DNA from: a virus
DNA length: 20,877 nucleotides
Direction: 5' to 3' (one strand)
Virus record (IMG/VR): IMGVR_UViG_3300009181_000433
Span: 1 to 20,877 of that record
The translations under genes were made by a program, and so were the position numbers. Every line of letters begins with the position of its first letter. The first letter of the stretch is position 1. Positions 4,405-20,877 of the stretch are shown piece by piece. The notes beneath the pieces were generated by a model that saw nothing but the letters and a program-made list of their open reading frames with translations, did no database searches and was not told the DNA's origin.

Positions 4405-4412
4405 TATTTAAA
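4405..4412 (-). promoter_or_regulatory. Late-promoter-like TTTAAATA before gp25
   Basis: The minus strand reads TTTAAATA followed by nine bases (three ATA units) and the gp25 ATG. It matches the TAAATA core of the T4 late -10 element seen before nine other starts here; its spacing to the ATG is the longest of the set. Confidence 0.5.
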
Positions 4413-4438
4413 CCGAAAATAGAAATATACAAAGAGAG

Positions 4439-4446
4439 CATAAATA
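4439..4446 (+). promoter_or_regulatory. Late-promoter-like CATAAATA before the plus-strand gene at 4452
   Basis: CATAAATA followed by ATAAT and then ATG. It supports the internal ATG at 4452 as the true start and mirrors the element serving gp25 in the opposite direction. Confidence 0.5.
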
Positions 4447-4451
4447 ATAAT

Positions 4452-5078
4452 ATGAAACATAAGTTTTTAGCATTGGTAGAAAACAGTATCACAAGATATA
4501 ACAACGGTGGTCTATTGACAGGTGATACTGTCAAGTTTGTTAAAAACTTTAAGAGTAAAGACTCCTATAAAGCTTTAAGTGATAACTTAAAAGACTATAT
4601 TGAAGAGTTTATAAAGACAGATAAGAACTTGAGAGTTGTTGATATTAAGACAATGTTTCCATCAAGTGCCCCAGGTAACAATGATAACAGAGGTAATGCA
4701 TTTTCAGTTGAAATTGCGATTGAATTAGCACCAGGCAGCTTTGATTTACAAAATAAATTTACAGTACCAAGTGATATCTTGATGCCTGATAATGATTATA
4801 TTAACTTACCGAAGATACCTGATAGTATCCGAAAGAAAGAAAAGCTTAATCATAAGCCAACACCACCAGAAGAAGCTGAAGAATCACCTTACAACCCGTA
4901 TTTACAAACTTTAATGACTCAAGATGGTGATAAGCTCACAAGAGGTGATAAAAAGTTAAACAATGTTAACGTTACCATTCCATCACAACCAGTTAAAGGT
5001 GCTAATTCTCCAGCAGTAAAGGGGTTTAATAGTGTTTATTCACCATTACCTACTAAGATCGTAATGCAACGTCGTTAA
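4452..5078 (+). CDS. Unknown 208-aa protein, plus strand, probably a late gene
   Basis: The frame is open from 4389, but the ATG at 4452 (MKHKFLALVENSITRYNN) is preferred because a CATAAATA element lies five bases before it and the extra N-terminal residues overlap gp25 and look non-coding (MALLLLFKPK). The protein has a compact N-terminal part (about 1-125), then a Pro-rich, probably disordered part (KPTPPEEAEESPYNP) and a basic tail ending MQRR. I do not recognise a family. It is one of few plus-strand genes; the late-type element suggests a virion or morphogenesis role rather than early metabolism. Its TAA overlaps the TAA of the convergent clamp-loader gene in a shared TTAA. Confidence 0.75.
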   Translation: MKHKFLALVENSITRYNNGGLLTGDTVKFVKNFKSKDSYKALSDNLKDYIEEFIKTDKNLRVVDIKTMFPSSAPGNNDNRGNAFSVEIAIELAPGSFDLQNKFTVPSDILMPDNDYINLPKIPDSIRKKEKLNHKPTPPEEAEESPYNPYLQTLMTQDGDKLTRGDKKLNNVNVTIPSQPVKGANSPAVKGFNSVYSPLPTKIVMQRR

Positions 5079-5994
5079 GTTGTAAGCTTTTCTAACTGAC
5101 AAAAGCAAGCAAACGCGTTTATTTCTTTATCAAGAACGAAAGCGTCTCTATATAGATACTCTGATATAATAACAATCATTTGTCTCTTGTTATCTGGTTT
5201 AGTATCTGAATTATAAATGAAGTTAAGGTAATGCTTTAGCAAGCTTGCATAGTCACCTTGAAACTCGTTTTCATTTTCAATCAGAAACTTACGAAGCTCT
5301 AAAACTTTCTTTGATACTAAATGGTTATTAATTTTAGTAACGATATCATTCCTATCAGTCGTATCTTTAATATGTAAAACACCTGATACACTATACTTTT
5401 GAATAGTATTAATGATTTTTCTGATATCAGGGTAGTTGTCTTTAATAACTCTTGCAAGGTTAACCCTTTCAGTCGTCGGTACCTCAATATTTTCAGTACG
5501 TAAAATGTAAACAATTCGGCTTAGTACATCTTGAACTGATGGATTGAGATCGAAGTACTGGGTTCTACTTTGAATAGCAGGAATGATCTTATGTTTATAA
5601 TTTGCAGTTAGAATAAACCTAGTGAAACTACTGTATTCCTCCATTGTATTCCGTAAAGCTCTTTGACCATCAATGGTAATACCATCAGCTTCATCTAAGA
5701 TTACTATCTTAATTGAACCATCGAGACTCTTTGTTTGAGAGAACCCACAAACCTTGCTTCTAATAGTATCAATACCGTTCTCGTCAGAGGCATTGATATA
5801 TAAATACTGACACTTTAGTATGTCCTGAACTATAATCTTTGAATAGTCGTTTTACCAATACCAGGAGTACCTACAAACAACAAATTCGGCACTTCATCCT
5901 TAAGAGTATTAAAGTAAGCCCTATTTTCACTAGACAAAACCATCTCATCGATAGTTTTAGGTCGGTATTTTTCTACCCAAAGATTATTAAACAT
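5075..5994 (-). CDS. gp44: Sliding-clamp loader large subunit (gp44-like AAA+ ATPase), broken by a one-base frameshift
   Basis: The gene begins at the ATG 5992-5994 (MFNNLWVEKYRPKTIDEMV, the typical clamp-loader N terminus). Walker A GTPGIGKTT (residues 42-50) follows, and three codons later the frame hits TAG at 5830-5832. Adding one base near 5841 (so that ATT-CAAAG reads ATT-GCA-AAG, giving KTTIAK) restores a continuous 306-aa protein, against 319 in T4 gp44. After the break come YLYINASDENG, Walker B VILDEAD (about 98-104), sensor 1 LTAN (about 129-132) and the QSR arginine-finger motif (142-144; SRT here instead of the usual SRC). Family role: with gp62, gp44 loads the gp45 clamp onto DNA. 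gp62 and gp45 are not in this window. The gene follows dUTPase by 27 bases and neither has the late element. Without the extra base only a 54-aa fragment and an internal ATG product (from 5644) would be made. Confidence 0.88.
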
Positions 5995-6021
5995 ATTATA
6001 ATTATGTAACTGTTCCGTTTA

Positions 6022-6486
6022 CTACCAATTAACTGTAAGCACTTCATCGGATGAACCAAATCCTTTATCACCTCTTTTAGATTCAGAGGCTTCTGTATCC
6101 CAATGAACGTTAGCTTGAATAAGTGGGTAGATAACTAACTGAGCTACCTTATCACCTTGCATTATTGTCTGAAATTCAGGACCAAAGTTATAAATTTTAA
6201 TGCCCATATCACCTCTATAACCATTATCAATAACACCAAAGTGAGGAAATAGGTGCTTCTTAAAGCCTAAACCTGATCTACCTTCGACTTTAAACCAATA
6301 ACCTGGTGTAATGTATGCTAATTTGAGGCCAACTGGCACAATTGCCCAACTATTACCTGGTATAACCGTTGTTTCAACAGCTGTAACGTCTAAACCCGTA
6401 TCGCCAGTAAAGGGATCTGAGTGATTACTTGTAGGTAACACAGCCTTAGGATGAGTTAAAATGAATTTAATATCAATTGGAAACAT
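6022..6486 (-). CDS. dut: Deoxyuridine 5'-triphosphate nucleotidohydrolase (dUTPase)
   Basis: 154 aa, normal for a trimeric dUTPase, with all five motifs: motif 1 GDTGLDVTA (28-36), motif 2 EGRSGLGF (68-75), motif 3 GVIDNGYRGDMGI (84-96, catalytic Asp87 and uracil-stacking Tyr90), motif 4 GDKVAQLVI (111-119) and the flexible C-terminal motif 5 RGDKGFGSS (138-146). It hydrolyses dUTP to dUMP and pyrophosphate, keeping uracil out of phage DNA and supplying dUMP for thymidylate synthesis. The start MFPIDIKFILTHPKAVLP fits the usual short N terminus. It lies just upstream of the clamp-loader gene in the same direction. A sigma70-like TTGATT-16 bp-TATAAT lies directly before it, fitting early transcription by host polymerase. 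Intact and confidently identified. Confidence 0.96.
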   Translation of the reverse strand: MFPIDIKFILTHPKAVLPTSNHSDPFTGDTGLDVTAVETTVIPGNSWAIVPVGLKLAYITPGYWFKVEGRSGLGFKKHLFPHFGVIDNGYRGDMGIKIYNFGPEFQTIMQGDKVAQLVIYPLIQANVHWDTEASESKRGDKGFGSSDEVLTVNW

Positions 6487-6495
6487 ATATTCATG

Positions 6496-6523
6496 ATTAT
6501 ACCTATAGAGATCTTTAAATCAA
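6496..6523 (-). promoter_or_regulatory. Sigma70-like promoter for dUTPase and clamp loader
   Basis: On the minus strand TTGATT (6518-6523), a 16-base spacer and a perfect TATAAT (6496-6501) lie immediately before the dUTPase ATG at 6486. A start site about 7 bases after the -10 would leave only a few bases of leader. It differs from the TAAATA elements of the structural genes, consistent with early expression. Confidence 0.5.
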
Positions 6524-6546
6524 GTAGATATATGATAAGTATTTTA

Positions 6547-7008
6547 ATGGCTGATCAAGATGTTAATGATGCAGTAGGTGAATTGTTAGATCAATTGCAA
6601 GGTAAAGGGAATGTTCCTAATCTTACACCTAAATTACAGGAACTTTCCAAAGAAAATATGGAACAATTCTTGCTTCAATACTCAAGTCAGTTAATAAAGG
6701 GAAGTGTTGAGTTTGTTGATGACTTAAAACAATATATTACATCTGCTCCTACTCCGGAAGATGTACAAGCCATGGCCACATTAGTTAGTTCATCAGCTGC
6801 TGCAATTGAAACCCTCAATAAGATATTGCTTTCAAATAAAAATATTGATGCAAAATTCAAATTGAAGCAAATGGACATTGATAGTAAAAAGGAATTACAA
6901 CAAACTGATATTCAAGGTAAGTTAGTTATGAATAGAGAAGAACTTCTTAAGAAGTTGCTTGATGATTCAAAGATCATCAACGTTGAAGTAACAGACGTTA
7001 CACTTTAA
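6547..7008 (+). CDS. Candidate terminase small subunit (gp16-like)
   Basis: The frame is open from an ATG at 6493, but the start MADQDVNDAVGEL at 6547 (153 aa) is preferred, because the 18 residues before it would leave almost no spacer to the divergent dUTPase start; ATG 6532 is also possible. The protein is nearly all helical: a short N-terminal region, QFLLQYSSQLIKGSVEFVDDL, then TSAPTPEDVQAMATLVSSSAAAIETLNKI, then a charged coiled-coil-like stretch (FKLKQMDIDSKKELQQ). As far as I recall, this layout resembles small terminase subunits of marine T4-like phages, which form the ring that recognises DNA and stimulates gp17. That rests on pattern memory and is not certain; another helical morphogenesis protein is possible. 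Its TAA overlaps the stop of the convergent gene at 7005 in a shared TTAA. Gene 17 is far away, unlike the T4 16-17 order. Confidence 0.5.
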   Translation: MADQDVNDAVGELLDQLQGKGNVPNLTPKLQELSKENMEQFLLQYSSQLIKGSVEFVDDLKQYITSAPTPEDVQAMATLVSSSAAAIETLNKILLSNKNIDAKFKLKQMDIDSKKELQQTDIQGKLVMNREELLKKLLDDSKIINVEVTDVTL

Positions 7009-7919
7009 CCCTGAACACCTAATACAAACTTTGAAGAAAGTTGTAATGTTGATAAGTTATTTTTTAAAGCATCAACATTTACTTCTAAGTTTTCCATATT
7101 TGTAATAGTATATTTATAAAACACTGCTTTTCTTTCAGGGTTACCGTCTTGTGGATTGAATCCTTTGAAGAACATAATGAAGTCGCTTATTTTACCTAGC
7201 AAAGCATGTAGTTCGTTTAATATTGCTTGGTTATACTTAACAGCTCTATCATAATAAAGAATATCTGTAATTAAATTAGTACCATGTGATGTTTTAGCTG
7301 TGTTATCATTAACATCACCAGTTTGTAACCCGGCCAAATTTGTTTTTAAGAGCGGGTCTGTATAATTGTTAAAGGTTAAAGCAATGACTAAATTATTTCT
7401 AGACACTTTTGATATAGTTGTTGGTGGTAAGAACGATGGATGGATGTGTTGTTGACCGAAAGTATCAAAATATGGTATAACATTATTATCTAAAATAGAA
7501 TATGTGTCTGTTATATACCCTATATCATCTGAAAACGGTTTAAAGTATTGGTTGTTAGTAATAACCCTATCTAACCTTTGTTTGTAATCATTAGATAAAG
7601 ATAGGTACTTCTCAACAAAGAACATTTTAAATGAGTTATTCATCATTTTAGTTCCATCAACTTCTATATTACCATTATCTGCATTTATCTTAAAATTTTC
7701 AACAGTAAAATTTGTCTTGTTTAATTCATCAAATAAAATACCATATGAACTTAACATATTAACTGTAACAAGACTCTTATTAAACTTTATATTTTCATTT
7801 ACTTCAGATAAGAAGCTACCAACTGCATCAAGTATATTAGTGCTTTTATTATAAAAACTTAAGCTTGTGTCTTGAACTATACTAAGGTATTGGGGTAGTA
7901 ATGTTACTTTCTCGTTCAT
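7005..7919 (-). CDS. Unrecognised structural protein, last gene of the hub/gp53 unit
   Basis: 304 aa. Its ATG overlaps the TGA of the upstream hub-like gene (ATGA, 7916-7919), so it is translationally coupled and probably made with baseplate proteins. The sequence is mixed alpha/beta and Asn-rich, with a central region of IHPSFLPPTTISKVSRNN and a helical C-terminal half (YNQAILNELHALLGKISDFIMFF). No signal peptide, clear membrane segment or catalytic motif is seen. From its position a baseplate or hub accessory role is inferred; I cannot assign it to a T4 gene. It ends convergently with the plus-strand gene at 7008. Confidence 0.75.
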   Translation of the reverse strand: MNEKVTLLPQYLSIVQDTSLSFYNKSTNILDAVGSFLSEVNENIKFNKSLVTVNMLSSYGILFDELNKTNFTVENFKINADNGNIEVDGTKMMNNSFKMFFVEKYLSLSNDYKQRLDRVITNNQYFKPFSDDIGYITDTYSILDNNVIPYFDTFGQQHIHPSFLPPTTISKVSRNNLVIALTFNNYTDPLLKTNLAGLQTGDVNDNTAKTSHGTNLITDILYYDRAVKYNQAILNELHALLGKISDFIMFFKGFNPQDGNPERKAVFYKYTITNMENLEVNVDALKNNLSTLQLSSKFVLGVQG

Positions 7920-9481
7920 GGTATATTTTCGTTTATTTTAGGGTCATTGAAATGATATGTTTTAACTGCTATTATCTTATTGTAATAGCTATTGTTATCT
8001 TTAAAGATATGATCAACTTGTAGTATAAAGTATATACCTAAGAACTTATTATCAAAATCATTATCAACATAACTACCTGTTCTATCTATACTAATAAACT
8101 TGCCTGATTTTCTTTGAAATCCGCCTTGTACAGTTATCTCAACACCAAGATTTAACTTAAGAGCGTCTTTTAATACCTCGTTTCTACCAAATGCTAACTT
8201 CAATGCATCACTATCTTCTGAATATATTAGAAACTTGTTATCAAAGTTTTGGTTAGTCTTTTGTGTGTTGTTAATAATAAAGTTAGGTGATGGTTTATTA
8301 TCTCTACCTTTCATTGGAGCAACATATAGCTTAGAAAAGTCCTCTTTAACTCTTTGTACATCACCATCAACCCCGTTAATATCAAACGTCTTGCGTTCAA
8401 AGTTATATGAATGTACTAAGGTAGTTTTAATATTGTTTTGCCATGCTTCACCTGGGGTGTTAAAAAACTTAACATCAACAATATCGCTGGTCTCACCTAA
8501 CTCTAAAGCTATTAATGGCTTTTTAATATCGTTTTCAATAACATTATTGTTATCTTGAGCACCTGCTATGGTTAAATTCTCAACAAAATATTGACCACCT
8601 GAATCATTCTGTTTATTAAAAGCTTTTTGAAAAATACTACTAGCGCTTTCTAAAGTATATTCTCCTGTATAGTCATCCTTAGATAGGAAAGAGAAGTCTT
8701 TACCTGGGCTATTGCTAACATGTAAAGCATACATATACATTAAATCGTTTAATGCCGTATAATTGTTTGGTGATGAATAAAATAATTGACTTGCTCCTGA
8801 TTCAAAGTTAGGAGTAACTTCATTACTACCAGATAAAGTTGTAAAAACGGCTTGTGGGTTGTCTAACCCTTTTTTTAATATGTATTTTAAACAATCCCCT
8901 GTATAGGCTTGTCTATCCTTATCAGATAAAAATGCTATCTTGTCTTTTTTAAGTAAATTAACTGTAGAGAAGAATATTTTCTTTTCTTTTAAAATTTCAA
9001 AATCATAATCTTCAATAGTATACTTTTTTAATTTACCAGTCTTGCTAGGTACATCTACTTCATTAGATAGAATGAATACGTATTGAAACCCAAACACTTT
9101 ATTATAGTCTAAACTCTGTTCATTGTATGGGTTAGTACTAGGATCAACAGGTATAATAGATAGTAATAAAATGTCTCTTCCATCACCTCTGGTCTTATAT
9201 CCTCTTTCACCAATATTATCAACAAATTCAGATGATTGAGGAGATAATTTATATCTTTCAATAACGTCTTCTGTGTTATCTATAACTATATATCCGTTTA
9301 CAAATGGGTTATAGATTTGATCTTGAAGAAAAAGATCCTTTATAGCATCTTTTTGAAAGTCTACAACAACACCATCGGCATTTACAAACGTTGCTCTAAA
9401 CAAATAATTCTTTCTATTGATTGTATAGAAAAATTTTTGATAGTTATCTCTAGCATAAGAAAATGCACTTTCATTTCTCAT
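7916..9481 (-). CDS. Putative baseplate hub protein (gp27-like by fold pattern and position)
   Basis: 521 aa, longer than T4 gp27 (391). The N-terminal part (YLFRATFVNADGVVVDFQKD, then LFLQDQIYNPFVNGYIVIDN) looks like a beta-rich domain of a tail-hub protein, and the middle (FYSSPNNYTALNDLMYMYALH) resembles the helix that hub proteins of the gp27/gpD-like fold carry after their first barrel. The C-terminal part ends with another beta domain (GVEITVQGGFQRKSGKFISID). In T4, gp27 trimers form the hub joined to the spike and the tube. It overlaps both neighbours by ATGA (4 bases), between gp53 and an unknown protein, so it belongs to a tightly coupled baseplate unit. No lysozyme domain like that of T4 gp5 is visible. 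Membership of a baseplate gene set is likely; the exact gp27 equivalence is tentative. Confidence 0.55.
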   Translation of the reverse strand: MRNESAFSYARDNYQKFFYTINRKNYLFRATFVNADGVVVDFQKDAIKDLFLQDQIYNPFVNGYIVIDNTEDVIERYKLSPQSSEFVDNIGERGYKTRGDGRDILLLSIIPVDPSTNPYNEQSLDYNKVFGFQYVFILSNEVDVPSKTGKLKKYTIEDYDFEILKEKKIFFSTVNLLKKDKIAFLSDKDRQAYTGDCLKYILKKGLDNPQAVFTTLSGSNEVTPNFESGASQLFYSSPNNYTALNDLMYMYALHVSNSPGKDFSFLSKDDYTGEYTLESASSIFQKAFNKQNDSGGQYFVENLTIAGAQDNNNVIENDIKKPLIALELGETSDIVDVKFFNTPGEAWQNNIKTTLVHSYNFERKTFDINGVDGDVQRVKEDFSKLYVAPMKGRDNKPSPNFIINNTQKTNQNFDNKFLIYSEDSDALKLAFGRNEVLKDALKLNLGVEITVQGGFQRKSGKFISIDRTGSYVDNDFDNKFLGIYFILQVDHIFKDNNSYYNKIIAVKTYHFNDPKINENIP

Positions 9482-9843
9482 TGTAATTGTTGTTTAATAG
9501 CATTTAAAACTGGCTTTAAATATTGTTTCTTTAACACTTTAATTACCTTACCTGAATTGTTTATATCAAAAGGGTTTTGAATGTTATTCATAATACATAT
9601 TAACCACCATAGATATGTAGTGCCATATATCTGGTAACTCAATGTTGTTAATGGTATATTTGATTGTAATGTCATTAAGTCAAACACTGAATCATTAATA
9701 TTATTAGGCATTTTAATGTTCTTTATAATATTATAGAAGTAAAAGTTTTTATCATCAGTCTGAAAGACTTTAAAGATGTTTTCATACCTGTATATTTCTA
9801 GTCCAGGTAAGTCTTGTATATAATTTTGATATTGTCCGTTCAT
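9478..9843 (-). CDS. gp53: Baseplate wedge protein gp53
   Basis: 121 aa, shorter than T4 gp53 (196). The diagnostic part is the C-terminal half: LTTLSYQIYGTTYLWWLICI then MNNIQNPFDI, the LysM-like YG-x3-YWW...NNI-x-NPFDI pattern of gp53, followed by a basic helix (VIKVLKKQYLKPVLNAIKQ). In T4 gp53 joins the wedge intermediates together and is needed for ring assembly around the hub. Its ATG overlaps the stop of the gp48-like gene and its TGA overlaps the start of the hub-like gene, so all are coupled. The shorter N terminus could reflect a reduced domain. Confidence 0.8.
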   Translation of the reverse strand: MNGQYQNYIQDLPGLEIYRYENIFKVFQTDDKNFYFYNIIKNIKMPNNINDSVFDLMTLQSNIPLTTLSYQIYGTTYLWWLICIMNNIQNPFDINNSGKVIKVLKKQYLKPVLNAIKQQLQ

Positions 9844-11219
9844 CGTTGTACAGGTATGTTACCACTCCCTAATGACCCAGGTGGTCCGATAGTAAACGGT
9901 ATGTTTGTTCTTTCAGGTACCCCGTTAATTCTACGGCCAGTTAAACCGGGACCAAATTGATTTACCAGTGGCCCGAGTGGTTGATTGTTTGAAGCTACAT
10001 TATTATTGTTTATTAAATTAAATGGATTTGCTAAATTAAAATTACTTGCCCCGGTGGGGTCATTAAACTGAGGTAGGGTGGGTTGTATAAGTGGGCCTGT
10101 TGATCTAGGGCCTGTTGGTATATTACCACCTCCTATAGTAACTCTCGATGATATACCACCTGTTATAGCTGCGTATAAAAAGTTTTTCGTCTCTTCATTT
10201 AGACCTTCTATTGTAATATTAACTTCATATGCGTCAGGTATAATAGTTTGGAAAGATATCCCTCCGTTAATAGGAGCTTGTATATTTAACAACCGTCTAC
10301 TACCGAGAAATTTAACAGATAAAGAACTTATAAATGCATATGGCATATATACAACACCTGGTAATGATACTTCATATATAACTGGCATATCAAGAATTGA
10401 TCTAGTTCTTCTACCTGGTCTGTTTTGATAAATTAATCCAAAAAGCAATTGCCAATTTAGTTGAATATCACTTACTGTACCGGTATTTAATAAAGGAAAC
10501 TTTATATTAATAGTCCGGCCTTTATCTCCCATTGTAAATTGTTTTGACTGTTCTATATACGTGCCGGGTTTTAACATATTAGCAAAACCTGCTACCCCAG
10601 CAGCTATACCCCCTACTATAGTAGTTACATCCCCGCCGAGAAAACTCGCATGACCACCACCAAAATTTAAACTATTATCAACATATGAATTATCAAAATA
10701 TGGAAATGCATATTGAAACCCTGTTGGTTTGGTAATGTATAAATAATTGTAAGGTTGTAAAGTCTCTTCATTAAACTTAGAAGCTCCCTCAGCTTCAATT
10801 TTGTCTGTTAGTAATTTTTCAGCGTTGCGCGCAAAAGTAACACCGGTGTTAGTTGCTGCAGCTATAACATCAGCGGTAGTACTAATGAGTCCAGGACCAG
10901 CTGCGGTTTTTATACCCTCAGCTATAGACCCTACCCCTTTTAATAGTTCTTCACCACTTTGTACTGTTGCAAAAACTGAATTGGCTAAATTAGCTACGTT
11001 ACTGTTTATTAATAATTTCTTTTCTATTAATGTAATTGCAGGCACATCTCCTCTTGCAGAGATAGGGTTTTTTGTCCATTGAAAATCTGTTATAACGTTA
11101 ATTATATTACTAGCATTTATACTGCCATCTAATAAATTAGAATTGGTTACAACATTTAAAGCTGGTAATACTTTTGTACCCCCATTTGCTGTATCAGATA
11201 ATGTCCAGAGATTGGCCAT
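9840..11219 (-). CDS. Baseplate tube cap-like protein (gp48-like), with Gly/Pro/Asn-rich tail
   Basis: 459 aa. A long N-terminal part with an Ala/Gly-rich helical region (about 60-145) leads into a body with YLYITKPTGFQYAFPYFDNS and a second Gly/Ala-rich region near 195-215. The C-terminal core holds PGVVYMPYAFISSLSVKFLG and FQTIIPDAYEVNITIEGLNE, a pattern like the C-terminal end of T4 gp48, the tube cap on the baseplate. The last ~100 residues (GGGNIPTGPRSTGPL... GPPGSLGSGNIPVQR) are low-complexity and probably disordered, similar in composition to the tail of the tube-initiator-like protein at 14195-15091. A motif ATTAAATA lies five bases before the ATG, and gp53 and two further genes follow with ATGA overlaps. 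The gp48 assignment is by pattern and neighbours, not certain. Confidence 0.55.
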   Translation of the reverse strand: MANLWTLSDTANGGTKVLPALNVVTNSNLLDGSINASNIINVITDFQWTKNPISARGDVPAITLIEKKLLINSNVANLANSVFATVQSGEELLKGVGSIAEGIKTAAGPGLISTTADVIAAATNTGVTFARNAEKLLTDKIEAEGASKFNEETLQPYNYLYITKPTGFQYAFPYFDNSYVDNSLNFGGGHASFLGGDVTTIVGGIAAGVAGFANMLKPGTYIEQSKQFTMGDKGRTINIKFPLLNTGTVSDIQLNWQLLFGLIYQNRPGRRTRSILDMPVIYEVSLPGVVYMPYAFISSLSVKFLGSRRLLNIQAPINGGISFQTIIPDAYEVNITIEGLNEETKNFLYAAITGGISSRVTIGGGNIPTGPRSTGPLIQPTLPQFNDPTGASNFNLANPFNLINNNNVASNNQPLGPLVNQFGPGLTGRRINGVPERTNIPFTIGPPGSLGSGNIPVQR

Positions 11220-11224
11220 AACAA

Positions 11225-11232
11225 TATTTAAT
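11225..11232 (-). promoter_or_regulatory. Late-promoter-like ATTAAATA before the gp48-like gene
   Basis: The minus strand reads ATTAAATATTGTTATGGC, identical over 18 bases to the start region of the gene at 15091. It lies five bases before the ATG and would serve the whole gp48-like/gp53/hub/unknown block, whose other members have none. Confidence 0.55.
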
Positions 11233-11237
11233 TACGC

Positions 11238-12672: not shown

Positions 12673-12678
12673 TTATTA

Positions 12679-12686
12679 TATTTATC
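12679..12686 (-). promoter_or_regulatory. Late-promoter-like GATAAATA before the tape-measure candidate
   Basis: GATAAATA followed by six bases and the ATG at 12672. It overlaps the stop codon of the upstream gene (TGA, 12685-12687), so the element is squeezed into coding sequence. Confidence 0.5.
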
Positions 12687-13395: not shown

Positions 13396-13400
13396 AGTTA

Positions 13401-13408
13401 TATTTAAC
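13401..13408 (-). promoter_or_regulatory. Late-promoter-like GTTAAATA before the gene at 13395
   Basis: GTTAAATA, five bases, ATG. It decides the start of the downstream gene in favour of the ATG rather than the upstream TTG (13408-13410), which lies inside the element. Confidence 0.5.
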
Positions 13409-13410
13409 AA

Positions 13411-14190
13411 CTATACAGAAGACTCAACTTTACTACTATTTTCCTTATCTGCCATCTCTTTCATATAAAGCTTAAGCATAAGGTTACATTCAGGGTAAGA
13501 GTATTGATTGAAATCAGCAGCATTAAAATTTAAACATCTTCTCAAGCTATATTCTATATCATAAAAGTTTTGTAAGCTGTAAGAAAAGATTGCTTTTAAC
13601 AATAACAAGGCTGATGTGTTAAAGAATGATATAGTATAATCTATATGTTTTATATTGTAAATAAACGCGGCAAAATGTTCTGTTATTCTTTTGTATATAT
13701 CTACTACAGGTAATGCTGGGAAATTTTCAATACCTTTTTTTGTTAAATTAGTAACCTCATAATCGTTTATACTGCTGATACAATATACCACGTTTAAAAA
13801 TACATCCGTATTGGGTGTTAATTTAGTGGGAAATAAAAACTTATAAATGTTATCATTACATTCATATTCAAATGGTATAACTTCTACATTAAAAAAGTCA
13901 AATATAGTGTCTATTGAATAACTAATCTTAACATTATTAGCTACAAATTCTATATTTTTACCTAAAATAAGTTCGCGGTATTTTAATAAAATTAAAAATT
14001 TTTGTTGTAAATTAATCTTATAATCAGTAAGTAAGATTGCATCTAATAACGTTTCAAATGCATTAGATATAGTATTAACATCACTTGTAGATATATTCTT
14101 TACTAAATTTCTATACTCTATAAAAGAAATTTCTCTTGCTTGATAGGTTTTTCCTAGTACATCTATGTTATATACGAAATTGTAAGACAT
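13411..14190 (-). CDS. Baseplate hub-assembly-like protein, unrecognised
   Basis: 259 aa starting four bases after the upstream stop (TAATTAAATG), so it is likely coupled to the tube-initiator-like gene. The N-terminal part (VLGKTYQAREISFIEYRNLV) reads as a beta pair followed by a helix, then LLDAILLTDYKINLQQKFLI and helices, and a C-terminal helical region with LRRCLNFNAADFNQYSYPEC. The pattern resembles gp26/gp51-type hub-assembly proteins of T4-like phages, and it may be a distant paralogue of the 236-aa neighbour, but I cannot confirm either. The last residues (KENSSKVESSV) look disordered. No motif or membrane segment is seen. A role in assembling hub or tail before tube growth is a positional inference. 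Confidence 0.6.
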   Translation of the reverse strand: MSYNFVYNIDVLGKTYQAREISFIEYRNLVKNISTSDVNTISNAFETLLDAILLTDYKINLQQKFLILLKYRELILGKNIEFVANNVKISYSIDTIFDFFNVEVIPFEYECNDNIYKFLFPTKLTPNTDVFLNVVYCISSINDYEVTNLTKKGIENFPALPVVDIYKRITEHFAAFIYNIKHIDYTISFFNTSALLLLKAIFSYSLQNFYDIEYSLRRCLNFNAADFNQYSYPECNLMLKLYMKEMADKENSSKVESSV

Positions 14191-14194
14191 TTAA

Positions 14195-15091
14195 TTACGG
14201 TCCTAGCGGAACATTACCTGCAAATGACCCTCTTGGTCCTAATGGAACGTTGCCTGCAAATGATCCTCTTGCTCCAAGCGGTATACCTGTTGGTATAGAT
14301 GATTGTGAGGCTGGGGTTTGGCCTAATCCATTTAACCCACCTACCCCTAAAACTGATCCGCTCCCTCTTATACCTAAACCTGATATACTAGTACTTGGTT
14401 TTATAGATGTAGGAAGCCCGTTATAAGGTGCTTGTATATTATAATTATCATATGCAAATGTAACGTTAAATACATCTAACCCATCATCTGCATATGTAAG
14501 TGTTCTGGTATCTACTGCAGTTGGTACGCAATCATAATACTTCCAGACTTTTCTTAAAGTAGATGGTTTGCCAGTTTCAAACTTTCCAAATTGTATAATT
14601 GTTATATTTGTTTTTATGCTTTCAGAAACCGGGCGAGCTACAAATCCTCTATGAGCTGCCATTATTAACCATGGTCTTAAAATTAAATCTGTAAATGATG
14701 TATTGGTTTCTCTAAATTGAATTGTTAATTGATTAGATGCATATGCATCTCTACCTTCTAATATAGTACCTTGTATAAAACCTCTATTATTTTCAATAGT
14801 AGCACTACTAGAATTTAAATTCTCAGATGGTATACTAGCCCCACCAACAAATATACAACCTGCCTTTTGACTGTTCTCCGGTCTATCAACTAATATAGAT
14901 CTAACCGTATCTATATTCCAGCCTCCTTTGTCGCCTTGTATAAGTTCTACCCCTTGTAAATTGGTTGTATTAACTATTGCGGGTATATTATCAAAAAATG
15001 CTATGAACTGCGTTCTTAAAGGAATAGCTGTATCATATTGCTGTAAAGATGTAGCAAAATTATCCCGAGAATTAAAGCTTGTCTGAGCCAT
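14195..15091 (-). CDS. Tail-tube-initiator-like protein (gp54/gp48 group, tube fold) with repeat tail
   Basis: 298 aa. The body shows the signature of the tube fold: IPLRTQFIAFFDNIPAI near the start, FVGGASIPSENL, a region FREtNTSFTDLILRPWLIMA, then IIQFGKF and KVWKYYDCVPTAVDTRTLTY ending GLDVFNVTFAYDNYNI. T4 gp54 (320 aa) and gp48 are tube-fold proteins that cap the baseplate and start tube polymerisation, and length and place after the tube gene fit this group. The C terminus (from about residue 235) is Gly/Pro-rich and ends with two copies of a 12-residue unit RGSFAGNVPLGP after a partial one, encoded by 36-bp repeats. The gene follows the terminator of the tube gene and has its own ATTAAATA element. 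Which of gp48 or gp54 it equals is open. Confidence 0.6.
   Translation of the reverse strand: MAQTSFNSRDNFATSLQQYDTAIPLRTQFIAFFDNIPAIVNTTNLQGVELIQGDKGGWNIDTVRSILVDRPENSQKAGCIFVGGASIPSENLNSSSATIENNRGFIQGTILEGRDAYASNQLTIQFRETNTSFTDLILRPWLIMAAHRGFVARPVSESIKTNITIIQFGKFETGKPSTLRKVWKYYDCVPTAVDTRTLTYADDGLDVFNVTFAYDNYNIQAPYNGLPTSIKPSTSISGLGIRGSGSVLGVGGLNGLGQTPASQSSIPTGIPLGARGSFAGNVPLGPRGSFAGNVPLGP
14199..14300 (-). repeat. 36-bp tandem repeat at the 3' end of the tube-initiator-like gene
   Basis: Two nearly complete units (14199-14234 and 14235-14270) and a diverged partial third. Each unit encodes RGSFAGNVPLGP. The copies differ at a few positions, so they are not simply an assembly duplicate. Confidence 0.8.
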
Positions 15092-15096
15092 AACAA

Positions 15097-15104
15097 TATT
15101 TAAT
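15097..15104 (-). promoter_or_regulatory. Late-promoter-like ATTAAATA before the tube-initiator-like gene
   Basis: The minus strand reads ATTAAATA, TTGTT, ATG. It lies just downstream of the hairpin terminator of the preceding unit, a position where a new promoter is expected, which is the strongest contextual support for this element being a promoter. Confidence 0.6.
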
Positions 15105-15107
15105 CAT

Positions 15108-15133
15108 AAAAATGCCGTACTATAGTACGGCAT
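15108..15133 (-). terminator. Rho-independent terminator after the tail tube gene
   Basis: Perfect 9-base arms ATGCCGTAC and GTACGGCAT (15112-15120 and 15125-15133) around TATA, with the minus strand then running into a T tract (15112-15108). It lies 25 bases beyond the tube gene stop and before the next gene. The stem is GC-rich against an AT-rich background. It would end the sheath/tube transcript. Confidence 0.85.
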
Positions 15134-15158
15134 GATATCCATTTACGTTTTTAAGATA

Positions 15159-15818
15159 TTAAAATCTAGGCGTAATTGCTTGAACGGCGTTTTGAACTGC
15201 TCTATTAGCAGCACCTCTAAGTACTCCACTGACTTGAGCGCCAACGCCTCTTGCTGTTGTAGCAATACCACCCTTAGTTTGTCTAAAGTAATGATAAGCA
15301 ACATTACAATCAAAGTTTTGAACTTCACCTGTTGATGTTATATCATATGCTAATGCAGCTACGTCTCTAATACTAACACCAACTAATTGGTATTGTGATA
15401 CAACATTTAATTGTTTGTCAAGTTGAGCAAGATCAATTACTGCATCAGGACCTGGTATAAAATAATTACCTGTGCTAGTTGCATCATCAAAGGTTGCTCT
15501 AGAAACTGCTAATAACTTCTGTCTTAATGACTGAGCTTCGTCAGCATAAAAATTGATTGTATAGCTATCGCTCCCAGCGTATGTAGCAACGCCTGGCACG
15601 TTAAAATTTAATCCCATATATGGTACTGGAATATTTGTAATGTTTCTTGCTGGTAAGCTTGCTGTTCTGGCATATACTAAATCGTTATCATCTAGTAATA
15701 ACCCACCCCCGTTGAGGCCGAAATTAATGTTAAGCACTCTAAATAGATTTGAGCGTGAGAAATCTTTTGATTGTGCTGTCTGATAGAAATTTGTAATTGT
15801 TTGGTTGACGTCTGCCAT
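15159..15818 (-). CDS. gp19: Tail tube protein gp19
   Basis: 219 aa, longer than T4 gp19 (163). The family pattern is clear: an N-terminal SRSNLFRVLNINFG strand, then YARTASLPARNITNIPVPYM, FNVPGVATYAGSDSYTINFY, a loop DATSTGNYFIPGPD, and the closing strand EVQNFDCNVAYHYFR. It forms the hexameric rings of the inner tube that the sheath surrounds. The C-terminal extension (GGIATTARGVGAQVSGVLRG... ) is Gly/Ala/Arg-rich and extra to T4. It follows the sheath gene with one small ORF between, is preceded by AATAAATA five bases before the ATG, and is followed by a strong terminator, so it can be made in large amount. Confidence 0.9.
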   Translation of the reverse strand: MADVNQTITNFYQTAQSKDFSRSNLFRVLNINFGLNGGGLLLDDNDLVYARTASLPARNITNIPVPYMGLNFNVPGVATYAGSDSYTINFYADEAQSLRQKLLAVSRATFDDATSTGNYFIPGPDAVIDLAQLDKQLNVVSQYQLVGVSIRDVAALAYDITSTGEVQNFDCNVAYHYFRQTKGGIATTARGVGAQVSGVLRGAANRAVQNAVQAITPRF

Positions 15819-15823
15819 GTTAT

Positions 15824-15831
15824 TATTTATT
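15824..15831 (-). promoter_or_regulatory. Late-promoter-like AATAAATA before tail tube
   Basis: AATAAATA, five bases, ATG. There is no Shine-Dalgarno in the available space, although the tube protein must be among the most abundant late products. Confidence 0.55.
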
Positions 15832-15834
15832 GTT

Positions 15835-16026
15835 TTAGCCTAAAATTAACTGATTATTTGATGCTTCGTTTTTACTATCTAAAAGTATATTCTTTATACT
15901 AATATCTTTCTTAGTATACCAAACGTTATTAATAAGATACCCCACTGAAGTTACCTCTTGGATAACTCCAGTACGTTCATTACTATCAAACGATGTTGTG
16001 AAAAACACTGTATTGCCTTTATTCAT
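15835..16026 (-). CDS. Small 63-aa protein between sheath and tube
   Basis: ATG start with ATTAAATA five bases before it. The sequence (MNKGNTVFFTTSFDSNERTG, then VIQEVTSVGYLINNVWYTKK) reads as short beta strands like a small SH3/KOW-type barrel, followed by a helical tail. I do not recognise a family. T4 has no gene at this place between 18 and 19. Its own promoter-like element and position argue that it is a real late gene, perhaps a minor virion or tail assembly factor. Confidence in coding is moderate since it is short. Confidence 0.65.
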   Translation of the reverse strand: MNKGNTVFFTTSFDSNERTGVIQEVTSVGYLINNVWYTKKDISIKNILLDSKNEASNNQLILG

Positions 16027-16031
16027 TATAA

Positions 16032-16039
16032 TATTTAAT
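16032..16039 (-). promoter_or_regulatory. Late-promoter-like ATTAAATA before the 63-aa ORF
   Basis: ATTAAATA, five bases (TTATA), ATG on the minus strand. It shares the same core as the elements at 11225 and 15097. Confidence 0.5.
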
Positions 16040-16041
16040 TT

Positions 16042-16084
16042 TATAGGTTATAATAAGTTATATCCGGTATAGGTTATAACTTAT
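16042..16084 (-). repeat. 12-bp direct repeat and 10-bp inverted repeat at the end of the sheath gene
   Basis: TATAGGTTATAA occurs twice, at 16042-16053 and 16068-16079. Overlapping it, ATAAGTTATA (16053-16062) and TATAACTTAT (16075-16084) form a perfect inverted repeat with a 12-base loop. The hairpin includes the sheath stop codon (16081-16083). The stem has almost no G/C and no T tract follows closely, so it is a weak terminator candidate and may be an RNA processing or attenuation site. Confidence 0.65.
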
Positions 16085-18486
16085 CCAACTAACTCGTTAA
16101 AGTTAGCACTTGTACGAGTTGCGTAGAAATTAACCAATATAAACTCTGCTGTTCTTACTGGCTTGAGATATATATCAACGACAAGTTCGTTTTGATCGAT
16201 AATACTAGGTGTATTATTACGTTCATCGCATACGATAAGATAATCATACAACCCTTCAGTATTCTTAGCATAGTCGAATATAGGAGTTAATGTATTGATT
16301 ACTCTTGTTCTTGTTAAAAGCGTGTTAGGTTCAAATACGAAAAACTTTACTGTTTGAGCAGTTGCTTTTTCAAGTGATAAGAATAACCGTCTTACGTTAA
16401 TTCTATCAAATGCACTTGGTTGCTTTAACATTGTCTTTTGACCATATATTACAAACCCTTCATTTGGAAAGAATGCAACTGGATTTGCATTTACTTTATA
16501 CAATTGATCTCTTTGTTTTTGTTTTGGCTTTAATGCTAAGTCAGCTGCACCTCTTACTGAGCCTCTTGTAAACCCTGCTGGTGCATACCAAGGTTGGTAT
16601 ACTGAATCTGTACTTGCCATTGCGGCTGCTGCAAAACCAGAGAATGGCACCCAGCAAAAGTCACCTAATGCACTATCAAACACCTTACACCAATTTGCAT
16701 ATACTGTTGAATAACTTGTATTGAACGGTGCAAGCACATTTCTAATAGGGCTATACATATTCAATGAGAAGTTATTATTTGGATCAGCTAATGGTAAGAA
16801 ATTAGTACCTTGAACGAATATGTTTCTTGGTAAATCACCAACAAACAGATGATCCTTTCTTCTTAATCCTGCAAAATCTGAATACCTATTAAAGATTGTT
16901 GCGTAATTAGCTGCAAATGTTGCGGCAGTACCAGTAACATTGTCTGGGTTTGTTGTATATAACCCGCTAATTGCAGATACAAATATTGTATCATCAAAAT
17001 AATGTTGAGCTGAGGATAATGTAGGGGTATTGTTTATATATTCACTTACCGCAAATATTGTCGTCATACCAGCATCAATTGAAACATCAACGTTGTATAC
17101 TTCTGTGTTTTCAGCAATATCAAACATTCTATCAAGCTTTAATGGTATTGAACCGAGATCTTTTGTCTTTAAGTTCGTATCTGTATATGCCCCTGTTGGA
17201 TATAAATTATCTACTGGTGTTAATACTGTATAGCATGATCCTAAAGCTGCTGATAACAATGTAACTTGTGTATTAGCTGTTGCTGAATTTACTATACCAT
17301 ATTGCGCTGAAAGATTATACAATAATGTGCTAGGAGCTACATAAGCTGATGTAACCATTCTAACTTTATTAGTTGGTACACCGGCATTTGATAACCAAGT
17401 TGAACCGTTCTTATGAGAAATAAAGTCATTAACGAGTATTGTAACATTAGGTGATGTATCTTCTCTTGTTTCTAAGAAAAAGCTTACTGGTTGACCACCG
17501 TTTTGCGAATTAAGCTGTCTCCAATAATCGAGTGAACCAATATATCTTTCACTAAACACATAATCGAGCTTGATTGAGTCTGGCGAAAATACTGATTGCT
17601 TTAATTTAAATAAACCAAAAGATAAAGTATCATCGAAATTAACAGTATCAATATTAAATGTACTTGCATTCTCTAATACTTGTGATAAGCTATTGCCTTG
17701 CTGGCCATAATTTAAAACCCCTGCAGGTTGATTATCAGATAATGATGATAGACTGAAATTTAATCTAGTCGATGGTACAGTAATATAATTCGTTGTGTTT
17801 GTAGCACTTTGCGTTACAGTTTGTACAGTTAAGATGTCATCAAAGTTTGATGTAGGACTTAAATTAGAATTGTCTATAATACCAACATAATATCCTTCAA
17901 ATAAATTGTTAACTGTTGTTTGAGCTTTGTTGAGCACAATCATACCAGCATTTCCTAAATCGCTAAATGCATTAAATGATGATTTGCCTGTGTTGCTCCA
18001 ATTAAAGCCACTACCTTGTAAAATATTATCGTATTGTTGCGCTGTTAACTCGAAGTGAGTTGGTTCACCAAATACATAAAGTACACCAGATGCTTGAGCA
18101 TTGTATGTAGTTAAGAATTTACCATATTGTGATGGCTGATTTGTATAGTCAATGTTAATTGCAGAGCAAGGATAAACTAACGCACCATAATTTGCACCAA
18201 ACCCCGTGCCGTTATTTGCACCGTAAGGTAACTTATATGTATAAACATTTGCTGTTGTATTAAGCAGAGGAGCTACTGAATGGTAAAAATATCTTTCAGC
18301 AGGTGTCTGAGGTTGACCATAGATATTAGTAAAATCAGATAAACTTGTAACTTGTAAAACTTCATCAGTAGGACCGGTAGCAGCAAACCCTGCTACTAAC
18401 ACGTTTGTACCTGTAGGTACCACTGGACCTTGAGATAAATCAATTTCTGAAATTTGTACGCCTGGAGATTCAATTGAGCGAGCCAT
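16081..18486 (-). CDS. gp18: Tail sheath protein gp18
   Basis: 801 aa, against 659 in T4. The N terminus MARSIESPGVQISEIDLS and GTNVLVAGFAATGPTDEVLQ are typical of contractile sheaths, as is the C-terminal domain: VNANPVAFFPNEGFVIYGQK, MLKQPSAFDRINVRRLFLSL, then FEPNTLLTRTRVINTLTPIF and VVDIYLKPVRTAEFILVNFY. The C-terminal domain makes the strand-exchange mesh that couples neighbouring subunits during contraction. The extra ~140 residues lie in the middle region, where sheath insert domains are exposed on the outer surface. A CATAAATA element lies seven bases before the ATG. It is followed by a small ORF and the tube gene. Confidence 0.96.
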   Translation of the reverse strand: MARSIESPGVQISEIDLSQGPVVPTGTNVLVAGFAATGPTDEVLQVTSLSDFTNIYGQPQTPAERYFYHSVAPLLNTTANVYTYKLPYGANNGTGFGANYGALVYPCSAINIDYTNQPSQYGKFLTTYNAQASGVLYVFGEPTHFELTAQQYDNILQGSGFNWSNTGKSSFNAFSDLGNAGMIVLNKAQTTVNNLFEGYYVGIIDNSNLSPTSNFDDILTVQTVTQSATNTTNYITVPSTRLNFSLSSLSDNQPAGVLNYGQQGNSLSQVLENASTFNIDTVNFDDTLSFGLFKLKQSVFSPDSIKLDYVFSERYIGSLDYWRQLNSQNGGQPVSFFLETREDTSPNVTILVNDFISHKNGSTWLSNAGVPTNKVRMVTSAYVAPSTLLYNLSAQYGIVNSATANTQVTLLSAALGSCYTVLTPVDNLYPTGAYTDTNLKTKDLGSIPLKLDRMFDIAENTEVYNVDVSIDAGMTTIFAVSEYINNTPTLSSAQHYFDDTIFVSAISGLYTTNPDNVTGTAATFAANYATIFNRYSDFAGLRRKDHLFVGDLPRNIFVQGTNFLPLADPNNNFSLNMYSPIRNVLAPFNTSYSTVYANWCKVFDSALGDFCWVPFSGFAAAAMASTDSVYQPWYAPAGFTRGSVRGAADLALKPKQKQRDQLYKVNANPVAFFPNEGFVIYGQKTMLKQPSAFDRINVRRLFLSLEKATAQTVKFFVFEPNTLLTRTRVINTLTPIFDYAKNTEGLYDYLIVCDERNNTPSIIDQNELVVDIYLKPVRTAEFILVNFYATRTSANFNELVG

Positions 18487-18493
18487 ATGTAAT

Positions 18494-18501
18494 TATTTAT
18501 G
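18494..18501 (-). promoter_or_regulatory. Late-promoter-like CATAAATA before tail sheath
   Basis: CATAAATA, seven bases, ATG. Again no Shine-Dalgarno fits between the element and the start. Confidence 0.55.
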
Positions 18502-18517
18502 ATTTTGCGGACAACTT

Positions 18518-19123
18518 TTACAACAATTCAGCAAAGAACTGAGAAAAGGCAAATGAAAAAGAAGATTCAATTTCACCAGGCTCTCTATAATTATAATCTA
18601 TCCCATTAAGGAGAACAGGAAATGCTTTGGTGTAAGTAAATTTAATAACATTGACATCAAATTCATCTTTACCGAAGATTGTTAAATCAGTTTGGTATTG
18701 ACTTGGGCTTAATTTTACTGGTAATTTGGTATACTCTACAGGAGGTATAGTTGGGTCATCTGAATTATAAAATGATTCCTTTTCATTATTAAGAATATCC
18801 AGCCATTTATATATAGCCCAGTAATTGTTAAATCTGTTATCAATAGTGAAGTTAACAGTTATATTATTATATGGTGGTCTACTATGAGAAGACAATTTAT
18901 ACGTCTGGCCACTATAGCCTGCTGCTACTTCTGGTACAGATATCTCTGGAATAACTGATCCGAACACTGAAAATTGAACTGAATTTTCATTTACTGAGTT
19001 ATTACTTCTACCTTTCAATGATTGGTTATTAATGTCTCTCATAACTGGCGGTAAGTTAACCACAAGTAAAAACTTATCTAACCTATTCTTATTGAGTTGT
19101 GATTGTGTTACTTTATCTATCAT
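18518..19123 (-). CDS. Tube-fold structural protein between terminase and sheath
   Basis: 201 aa, starting 11 bases inside the end of the terminase gene. The pattern SVFGSVIPEISVPEVAAGYS, then PYNNITVNFTIDNRFNNYWA and the closing FDVNVIKFTYTKAFPVLLNG matches the beta-barrel layout of tail-tube-type proteins and resembles the end strands of the tube protein at 15159 and the initiator-like protein at 14195. T4 has no gene between 17 and 18. It may be a tube-related completion, terminator or neck protein. A TATAAAATA variant element lies four bases before the ATG. Structural role likely; exact name not assigned. Confidence 0.7.
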   Translation of the reverse strand: MIDKVTQSQLNKNRLDKFLLVVNLPPVMRDINNQSLKGRSNNSVNENSVQFSVFGSVIPEISVPEVAAGYSGQTYKLSSHSRPPYNNITVNFTIDNRFNNYWAIYKWLDILNNEKESFYNSDDPTIPPVEYTKLPVKLSPSQYQTDLTIFGKDEFDVNVIKFTYTKAFPVLLNGIDYNYREPGEIESSFSFAFSQFFAELL

Positions 19124-20804
19124 TGTGTATTTTATATCCGAGTTGAATTAAATTTTCCATTTCACTAAGACCGGTATTTTTATCTGATAAAATGGTAGGC
19201 ATTGCTGAGTTGTTACCATCCGTATCATTATAAAGAGAACCTGGGTTAGTATAATATTTAATACCAAAATCTAATTGCTTTAATATAAGAGGTCTATTAT
19301 TAGAGTCATGTTGTATAACTTCAAAGTGCTTGTCTACTAAATCTTTATCTAATATAATTAACGCCCATACAAAGCTCATCACTCTATCATCATGGTAGCC
19401 AGCTCCTTTTTTAGCTGACCAGGTACCGTTGCTATGGCGAACAAAACTTTTAAATTCTTTTAAAAGATTTATATCCCTGATCTGTACTACTTCAAGTTGG
19501 TTTACCCAATACCTCATATTAGTTATACCAGTATACTTTGTATTTGTATGTACTACAATGCCTAGTTGGTCTTTTTGTCTACCTGCTGTAGCTGCTCCCC
19601 ATGAAACAATATTATCATATCCAAATGTATTGCGTAGCCCATCAACAACTTGGGCACCACAATTATTTCTTTCAACACAAACAAGTGGTCTACCCCATTG
19701 AGCTAAAATTTCATTTAACTTACTTGTAAAGTTTACTGGTGATATACCACTATTATGATAACATGCAACTTGTCTTATATTTGTTAATTCAGTTATGTCT
19801 ATAACTTGTATGACGGTTGCATCTTTATCTATACCTTCGCTGACGTCAACCCCAGCCACGTAAATTCTATCATCTTTAGGTTCTTCCCAAATTTGATAGT
19901 TGCCTTCTTCCATAACATATAACGGCTGTTTTATATATACAGACAACTTACTATATAACTCTTCATTGACAGAACTCTCACCTGAGTCTAAGAATTCACA
20001 ATTAAATTCTTGATTGAAGGCATCTAAACTACCGATAGTTGCAACAGTTTCAATTTTCCATTTTTCATCTCTACCAGGAATTTCATTCCATAAAATTTTA
20101 TCTCCAGCCCAACCGTTCTTATTATTTTCAGCACCTGAATATAATGTATGGAATAAATTACCAGTACCGTTAGCAGTTGATGCAATAAAAATTTTAGATT
20201 TTTTAGATGATGAAACGATTGGATAAACTGATTTCCAAAACTCTTCAACTAAATGAGGTTCAATAAATGCTAACTCATCTAATAATAGAACGTTTATTGA
20301 TTGTCCTCTTGCTGCTGTACCTGTTGTGGTTGATATACCTATTCTACAACCATTTGCTAATGACATTGATGTCTTGCCGTATTCTTTTACGCCAGGTTTA
20401 ATCCAATTTGGTAACTCTTCGTATGCTAATCTAATTCTTCTAAAGATTTCTATAGCAGTGTTTTCTTTATTTGCAACAATTAATATGCTTTGATCTTCTT
20501 GAAAACAAGCAACCCATAAAGCATATATGGTAAACAGGGTCGTTTTACCAATCTGTCTGCTGGCTAATAATATAAAGAACCTATTATCTCTCATCTTTCT
20601 CAGAACTCTTTTTTGACATAAATGTAACTCTATGCATTGCTTACCTTCATCTAATGAAACAATGTGAAAATAGTTTTCAGCAAAGTAAAGTATGTTATTT
20701 GCACATTTTTTTAATGACGTTGCCATCTCCGCAGTATATTCAAACTGAGAGTCGCTAGCAGGTAGGTTCGGGTTATTTAGGTAATTCTGTTTGTTTTTAA
20801 TCAC
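19113..20804 (-). CDS. gp17: Terminase large subunit (gp17-like), ATPase-nuclease DNA packaging motor
   Basis: 563 aa from a GTG start (20802-20804), against 610 in T4. Motor domain: Walker A ASRQIGKTT (81-89, Lys87), Walker B NVLLLDE (171-177, Asp176/Glu177), coupling motif STANGTG (209-215). Nuclease domain of the RNase H fold: VAGVDVSEG with Asp320, VCVERN with Glu378, and HDDRVMSF with Asp472/Asp473. It cuts concatemeric DNA and pumps it into the prohead through the portal. The start codon choice is based on the first in-frame initiator after the divergent promoter-like region; an ATG at residue 27 (MATSLKKC) is the main alternative but would remove part of the N terminus. The gene overlaps the next tail gene by 11 bases. 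No small-subunit gene is next to it. Confidence 0.96.
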   Translation of the reverse strand: MIKNKQNYLNNPNLPASDSQFEYTAEMATSLKKCANNILYFAENYFHIVSLDEGKQCIELHLCQKRVLRKMRDNRFFILLASRQIGKTTLFTIYALWVACFQEDQSILIVANKENTAIEIFRRIRLAYEELPNWIKPGVKEYGKTSMSLANGCRIGISTTTGTAARGQSINVLLLDELAFIEPHLVEEFWKSVYPIVSSSKKSKIFIASTANGTGNLFHTLYSGAENNKNGWAGDKILWNEIPGRDEKWKIETVATIGSLDAFNQEFNCEFLDSGESSVNEELYSKLSVYIKQPLYVMEEGNYQIWEEPKDDRIYVAGVDVSEGIDKDATVIQVIDITELTNIRQVACYHNSGISPVNFTSKLNEILAQWGRPLVCVERNNCGAQVVDGLRNTFGYDNIVSWGAATAGRQKDQLGIVVHTNTKYTGITNMRYWVNQLEVVQIRDINLLKEFKSFVRHSNGTWSAKKGAGYHDDRVMSFVWALIILDKDLVDKHFEVIQHDSNNRPLILKQLDFGIKYYTNPGSLYNDTDGNNSAMPTILSDKNTGLSEMENLIQLGYKIHNDR

Positions 20805-20810
20805 GGGCGA

Positions 20811-20818
20811 TATAAATA
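20811..20818 (+). promoter_or_regulatory. Perfect T4-type late element TATAAATA, plus strand, at a divergent start
   Basis: TATAAATA, five bases (TTTAC), ATG at 20824. The core lies in the palindrome TAAATATTTA, so the minus strand also reads TAAATA, 12 bases before the terminase GTG. One short element may therefore serve both directions. Confidence 0.6.
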
Positions 20819-20823
20819 TTTAC

Positions 20824-20877
20824 ATGTCAATGGCTAATAATCTATTAGAAATATGGGGTTTGTATAACAGCAAAGTG
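20824..20877 (+). CDS. Start of an unknown plus-strand gene, cut by the window end
   Basis: Eighteen codons are visible from ATG 20824 (MSMANNLLEIWGLYNSKV); a second ATG two codons later is an alternative. The frame is open to the edge. A perfect TATAAATA lies five bases before the first ATG. The sequence is too short to identify; the late element suggests a virion or packaging function, divergent from terminase. Confidence 0.55.
   Translation, partial: MSMANNLLEIWGLYNSKV

Follow-up and report, generated by a model that had tools for sequence, protein, structure and literature searches.

The window considered here is the whole of the IMG/VR record IMGVR_UViG_3300009181_000433 (20,877 bases, 32.8% GC), whose source is an uncultured T4-like phage with a contractile tail. 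It carries genes for the terminase, the tail sheath, the tail tube, the baseplate wedge proteins gp25 and gp6, a gp53-like protein, a dUTPase and the clamp loader. Many of its genes, mainly virion genes, begin a few nucleotides (nt) after the hexamer TAAATA. It is highly probable that this hexamer belongs to late promoters of the T4 type, as their core, giving leaderless or nearly leaderless messenger RNAs (mRNAs), the early genes being transcribed from sigma70-type promoters. The nearest phage records are distant (at most 38% identity for the window terminase and at most 33% for the DNA polymerase of a relative), and one related contig, L251, has no near match among phage records. The lineage is without a close cultured member. 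IMG/VR contains both close and distant uncultured relatives, which we take from their sample series to be mostly freshwater and marine. A search for the host, in which genome contigs were scanned with sheath and terminase alignments, gave no confirmed relative.

An earlier note, made from the window alone, had listed ten TAAATA elements located 5 to 9 nt before ATG codons on both strands. All ten are present with these gaps (the gap being the number of nt between TAAATA, or TATAAT, and the start codon); two of the listed positions, 4439 and 20811, are the starts of 8-mers, TAAATA itself lying at 4441-4446 and 20813-20818. The probability that at least 10 of the 24 window starts carry TAAATA at gaps 5-9 by chance is about 1e-15. 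Furthermore, TAAATA is rarer in the window than dinucleotide shuffles predict (32 vs 62), so its clustering before ATG does not reflect general AT-richness. Two elements had been missed, a second TAAATA facing the terminase gene and a TAAGTA variant located inside the listed open reading frame 6493-7008 (Table 1). The latter was found once in the window against 0.74 expected by chance, and is the best enriched single-base variant at these offsets in the relatives (17 families vs 2.5). The start that it precedes matches the N termini of the relatives, and TAAATA is found at four of their eight copies. The palindrome TAAATATTTA (20813..20822) is made of two overlapping back-to-back TAAATA between the terminase gene and the divergent gene. 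It is conserved upstream of 37 of 56 related terL starts and, judging from its sequence, could serve both strands as back-to-back late promoters. The implied terminase leader is short (gap 11-12, about 6-7 nt) and the divergent gene is at gap 5.

The enrichment extends over the lineage. Among 1277 unique ATG starts from about 150 related IMG/VR loci, 295 have TAAATA at gap 5, compared with about 2 at each background offset. It is also found at gap 6 (86), gap 7 (65), gap 9 (33) and gap 11 (35), while offsets above 16 have about 2 each. When each family is counted once, 82 of 403 carry it at gap 5, the background being 3.3 per offset. TATTTA, its reverse complement, is flat, with no enrichment at gene starts in the relatives, which indicates that the signal is orientation-specific. 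Of the intergenic TAAATA sites, 217 of 318 precede a gene start at gap 4-12. The trait holds down to about 40% sheath identity and is also seen in contigs retrieved through gp55. These genomes being about 65-72% AT, an artefact of composition, combining AT-rich intergenic sequences with miscalled gene starts, could be considered. However, the reverse complement and permuted hexamers have no comparable peak, being found at gap 5 once (ATTTAT), once (TTAAAA) and seven times (TATTTA) against 367 for TAAATA, the called starts of sheath, tube and terminase match N termini that are conserved, and the hexamer is depleted in the window as a whole. The probability of such an artefact is close to nil.

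The geometry of the sites agrees with that of a T4 late promoter. The T4 late box TATAAATA spans positions -13 to -6 and five bases separate it from the transcription start, +1 (PMC2988020); with a gap of 5, the A of ATG is thus at +1. The upstream TA of the octamer is partly kept in the lineage (A at -13 with a frequency of 0.50, A or T at -12); T4 itself tolerates A at -13, and Aeh1 has a/gC there (PMC2988020). Positions -5 to -1 are nearly all A or T, except for C at -1, and the base preceding ATG is C or T at 90% of the gap-5 starts. Start codons at gap 5 are ATG in 442 cases, GTG in 38 and TTG in none, while the background has 3.8 TTG per offset; this absence of TTG would fit a requirement for a purine at +1. 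At gaps 7, 9, 11 and 12, where the ATG is elsewhere, an A six bases past the hexamer is kept in 69-88% of the sites. The late class has no -35 element (TTGA reaches at most 14/686, at gap 29), whereas this signal is strong in the early class. The same T4-type promoters could also give short real leaders of roughly 1-10 nt, or place +1 so that ATG begins at +2 or +3, if the gp55 relative initiated slightly nearer or farther than in T4. At gaps 6-12, leaders of 1-7 nt are expected in any case, and gap-6 starts show an A at +5 with a mixed +6. On the other hand, the A of ATG is indicated by the most frequent gap (5), by the restriction of +1 to purines and by the pyrimidine at -1, and the early promoters described below independently mark the same base. 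A general shift of this kind is therefore improbable.

The distribution of TAAATA among genes follows their class. It precedes most starts of the sheath, tube and gp25 families (Table 1), 47 of 56 for the terminase, and none of 27 for the clamp loader and dUTPase. No TAAATA was found in the relatives at the genes of DNA polymerase, UvsX, the gp41 replicative helicase, gp32, gp46, gp47, UvsW, gp55 and the RNase H-like exonuclease. Since many replication genes are tightly packed, a spacing-matched comparison was used, restricted to starts preceded by 15 nt or more of free sequence. In this set, TAAATA is found at 40 of 44 virion starts and 1 of 47 replication starts (Fisher P = 5e-20), a split that would fit late, replication-coupled expression of the virion genes. 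This agrees with the statement of the earlier note that the element marks mainly virion genes and is lacking at the dUTPase and clamp loader; an equal abundance before early genes, considered there as an argument against a promoter, is not observed. The earlier note also described overlapping genes inside units as lacking the element; 2% of same-strand overlapping genes have TAAATA, compared with 67-87% of those spaced by 11-100 nt.

Replication genes with free upstream space have another signal, namely a TATAAT peak at gap 6 and a TTGA peak at gap 30, which was also examined at the level of gene families. TTGA-N16/17-TATAAT with TATAAT 6 nt before ATG is an ordinary sigma70 geometry, which would place +1 on the A. 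Starts picked for TATAAT at gap 6 alone show T at -34 (0.94), G at -32 (0.77), A at -31 (0.74) and T at -1 (0.80), and 76 of 809 starts have both a -10 and a -35 element, compared with 2 for the shifted control. Both the dUTPase and the clamp loader of the window have such a candidate promoter (Table 1). From their sequences, early genes look leaderless as well, through sigma70-type promoters at equivalent spacing. Thus, the proposal of leaderless late transcripts is supported, but not as a property of late genes only. Furthermore, the distance to +1 differs between the two types of promoter and the phage respects each of them, which a translation signal would not explain.

Table 1. Coordinates and properties of the putative promoter elements and late units of the window (family: related starts carrying TAAATA; aa: amino acids).
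Feature	Coordinates	Strand	Gap (nt)	Start codon	Gene or product	Implied leader or +1	Family
Putative late core TAAATA	4405..4410	-	9	ATG 4395	gp25-like baseplate wedge	~4 nt	7/7
Putative late core TAAATA	4441..4446	+	5	ATG 4452	208 aa protein	+1 on A	6/6
Putative late core TAAATA	11225..11230	-	5	ATG 11219	459 aa virion-region protein		9/9
Putative late core TAAATA	12679..12684	-	6	ATG 12672	281 aa		
Putative late core TAAATA	13401..13406	-	5	internal ATG 13395	236 aa		18/27
Putative late core TAAATA	15097..15102	-	5	ATG 15091	tail-tube-like, 298 aa		
Putative late core TAAATA	15824..15829	-	5	ATG 15818	tail tube		61/67
Putative late core TAAATA	16032..16037	-	5	ATG 16026	63 aa		6/18
Putative late core TAAATA	18494..18499	-	7	ATG 18486	tail sheath	2 nt	75/78
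Putative late core TAAATA	20813..20818	+	5	ATG 20824			
TAAATA missed earlier	20817..20822	-	12	GTG 20804	terminase	about 7 nt	
Variant core TAAGTA missed earlier	6536..6541	+	5	ATG 6547	inside open reading frame 6493-7008		
Candidate early promoter TTGATT-N16-TATAAT	6496..6523	-	9	ATG 6486	dUTPase	2-3 nt	
Candidate early promoter TTGGTA-N16-CATAAT-N6-ATG (0 expected by chance)	5992..6028	-	6	ATG 5994	clamp loader gp44	+1 on A	
Late unit	19113..20804	-			terminase large subunit		
Late unit	16081..18486	-			tail sheath		

Shine-Dalgarno (SD)-like sequences are found at 2-13% of the lineage starts. The proportion is 73% in the late region of T4, and TAAATA is there mostly 21-30 nt before the start. 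The same distance is seen in the single-cell virus AG-345-L05; in the Pelagibacter phage Mosig, SD-like sequences are found at 63% of the starts and there is no TAAATA peak near ATG. The rarity of SD-like sequences would also fit an AT-rich translation enhancer (a Kozak-like signal, or a contact with bS1 or with A-rich sequence) working behind ordinary leaders, as in SD-poor Bacteroidota. In F. johnsoniae, the positive determinants are A at -3, -6 and -12/-13 (PMC6847099), and TAAATA does provide an A at -6. However, A at -3 is not enriched in the genes with the motif (0.40), replication genes with equal upstream space lack TAAATA, and they have TTGA and TATAAT at the -35/-10 distance, which a ribosome signal does not need. 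Moreover, the element is one exact hexamer in a fixed phase, common to two opposite strands at terL, whereas the -7 element of Bacteroidota, TAHHTTTG, shows no strong positional peak. Such an enhancer is thus very unlikely. The preference of the earlier note for a promoter over a generic translation signal is supported by the class split at matched spacing, the box geometry, the lack of a -35 element, the presence of gp55 in relatives and the control phages. A Bacteroidota host, suspected from the missing SD sequences, became unlikely in view of early promoters of the TTGA/TATAAT type and of the missing TAHHTTTG element. A phage-encoded bS21, considered as a device for SD-less initiation, was absent from 12 contigs and present in the control Mosig.

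The classification of 809 starts, from nine relatives plus the window, gives 32% of late type, 17% of early -10 type and 34% lying directly behind an upstream stop codon (mostly ATGA or TAATG). About half of the early -10 type have a -35 element. Some of the others are chance matches, as 55 of 809 shifted controls also pass the -10 test.

A search for the late sigma factor gp55, proposed as a check of the promoter hypothesis, revealed homologues in six relatives, with E values of 1e-26 to 1e-30; IMG/VR has 556 related stretches. Several of these gp55 genes lie under early-type promoters. Pfam PF02916, used to look for the sliding clamp gp45, gave no convincing match in the lineage. A protein of 243 residues, conserved in eight contigs (for instance L169:6041-6772, recognised only through structure), has a predicted PCNA fold with a predicted local distance difference test score (pLDDT) of 90, and its best PDB matches are PCNA (E about 1e-13). 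A tblastn search of 50,697 phage records gave no match to it. According to this structural model, it is likely the gp45 of the lineage.

Several observations weigh against the assignment of TAAATA to leaderless T4-type late promoters. Two non-virion genes carry the element, a DHH phosphoesterase (5/6; e.g., L169:2794-3669) and a PhoH-like protein (3/3; e.g., L167:4846-5616), suggesting that these genes have late roles. The gp55 gene is absent from the window, which is too short to hold it. The co-activator gp33, also proposed in the earlier note as something to look for, was not found in 12 contigs with PF16805 while the T4 and Mosig positive controls were, although the contigs may be fragments and the protein divergent. 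The C-terminal clamp-binding tail of T4 is missing in four of five gp55 homologues (L168:6500-6973, L175:1011-1457, L165:7123-7671 and L179:5793-6272); the fifth (L190:12897-13352) ends in FIFE, possibly a remnant of the tail. With gp33 not found and most gp55 homologues lacking the tail, the coupling of late transcription to the clamp may differ from that of T4. About 16% of the 809 starts are other or close starts, and 15% of starts fit no class. At longer gaps, the initiator signal is modest per family and is thus supporting evidence only: 34 of 81 families have a pyrimidine-purine step at +6, compared with 12-26 for the positions next to it.

From these sequences, we infer promoter activity with late timing for TAAATA, mRNA 5' ends at the AUG, as expected from the box geometry and the rule of a purine at +1, and an efficient leaderless translation. 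The host RNA polymerase carrying the gp55-type late sigma factor of the phage would recognise the TAAATA core of TATAAATA. Transcription would start on the A of the start codon at gap 5 and 1-7 nt before it at gaps 6-12, so that virion mRNAs would be leaderless or nearly so and be translated without SD sequence. Replication genes would use the host sigma70-type TTGA-N16/17-TATAAT, with TATAAT 6 nt before ATG, in the same layout. Many other genes, which overlap or abut the preceding stop codon (ATGA, TAATG), would probably be reached by translational coupling. It seems rather likely that the lineage is almost wholly devoid of 5' leaders and ribosome-binding sites, both early and late +1 coinciding with the start codon and downstream genes depending on stop-start coupling, and that gp33 and the contact of the gp55 tail with the clamp may have been lost or replaced.

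Other features of these genomes can be mentioned. The frame of the clamp loader gp44 (window 5645-5994, minus strand) is broken once, being in one frame up to GKTT and in another for the remainder. In the relatives, gp44 is a single frame of about 305 aa, and an assembly indel is the likely cause. The region 474-1825 (minus strand) encodes low-complexity repeat proteins, rich in Asn and Thr, with ITPTxS repeats across hundreds of residues, that are probably tail-associated adhesins. A long open frame on the opposite strand (558-1202) is probably spurious. In the relatives, a QueC-like protein (L168:16482-17231) and a glutamine amidotransferase-like protein (L168:18583-19254), conserved in eight contigs, may belong to a set of genes for 7-deazaguanine DNA modification.

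Leaderless mRNAs are a familiar feature of individual phage genes and of some bacteria. In the literature searched, which did not include subscription papers and preprints, no description of such a phage layout was found. If true, two unrelated promoter classes starting on the AUG would provide a clean natural experiment on how translation proceeds when ribosome-binding sites are missing, and the host would be predicted to translate leaderless mRNA well. The spacing of TAAATA and TATAAT also gives a simple rule by which promoters and correct gene starts can be located in numerous uncultured contigs. Furthermore, the lineage makes it possible to study how gp55 recognises late promoters in a setting that may lack gp33.

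Among known systems, the closest is the gp55-gp33-gp45 system of T4, with which the lineage shares the TAAATA core, the AT-rich downstream segment, the lack of a -35 element, the occurrence on both strands, the association with virion genes and, in the relatives, gp55 and a PCNA-like clamp. However, its promoter adjoins the start codon (gap 5-12 vs mostly 21-30 nt in T4), SD sequences are rare, the TA of the octamer is weakly kept, gp33 was not detected in the contigs searched and gp55 mostly lacks the clamp-binding tail. The nearest characterised relatives according to gp55 and DNA polymerase (about 32-42% identity) are T4-like cyanophages and pelagiphages, namely Kyanoviridae such as Mosig and the single-cell virus AG-345-L05. 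These also have gp55 and TAAATA-type boxes, but AG-345-L05 keeps them at the T4 distance, whereas Mosig combines the absence of a peak near ATG with frequent SD-like sequences. The A-rich, Kozak-like initiation of Bacteroidota likewise involves AT-rich start regions without SD, but host transcripts there have leaders of 33 nt on average (PMC6847099), and the lineage element tracks gene class and promoter type. Lastly, the leaderless "TA-led" genes of bacteria (Zheng et al. 2011, PMC3160421) lack an SD and have their -10-type box about 10-12 bp ahead of the start codon, an arrangement also seen here; unlike these bacteria, the phage would apply it to most of its promoter-proximal genes and with two sigma factors, one of which is its own.

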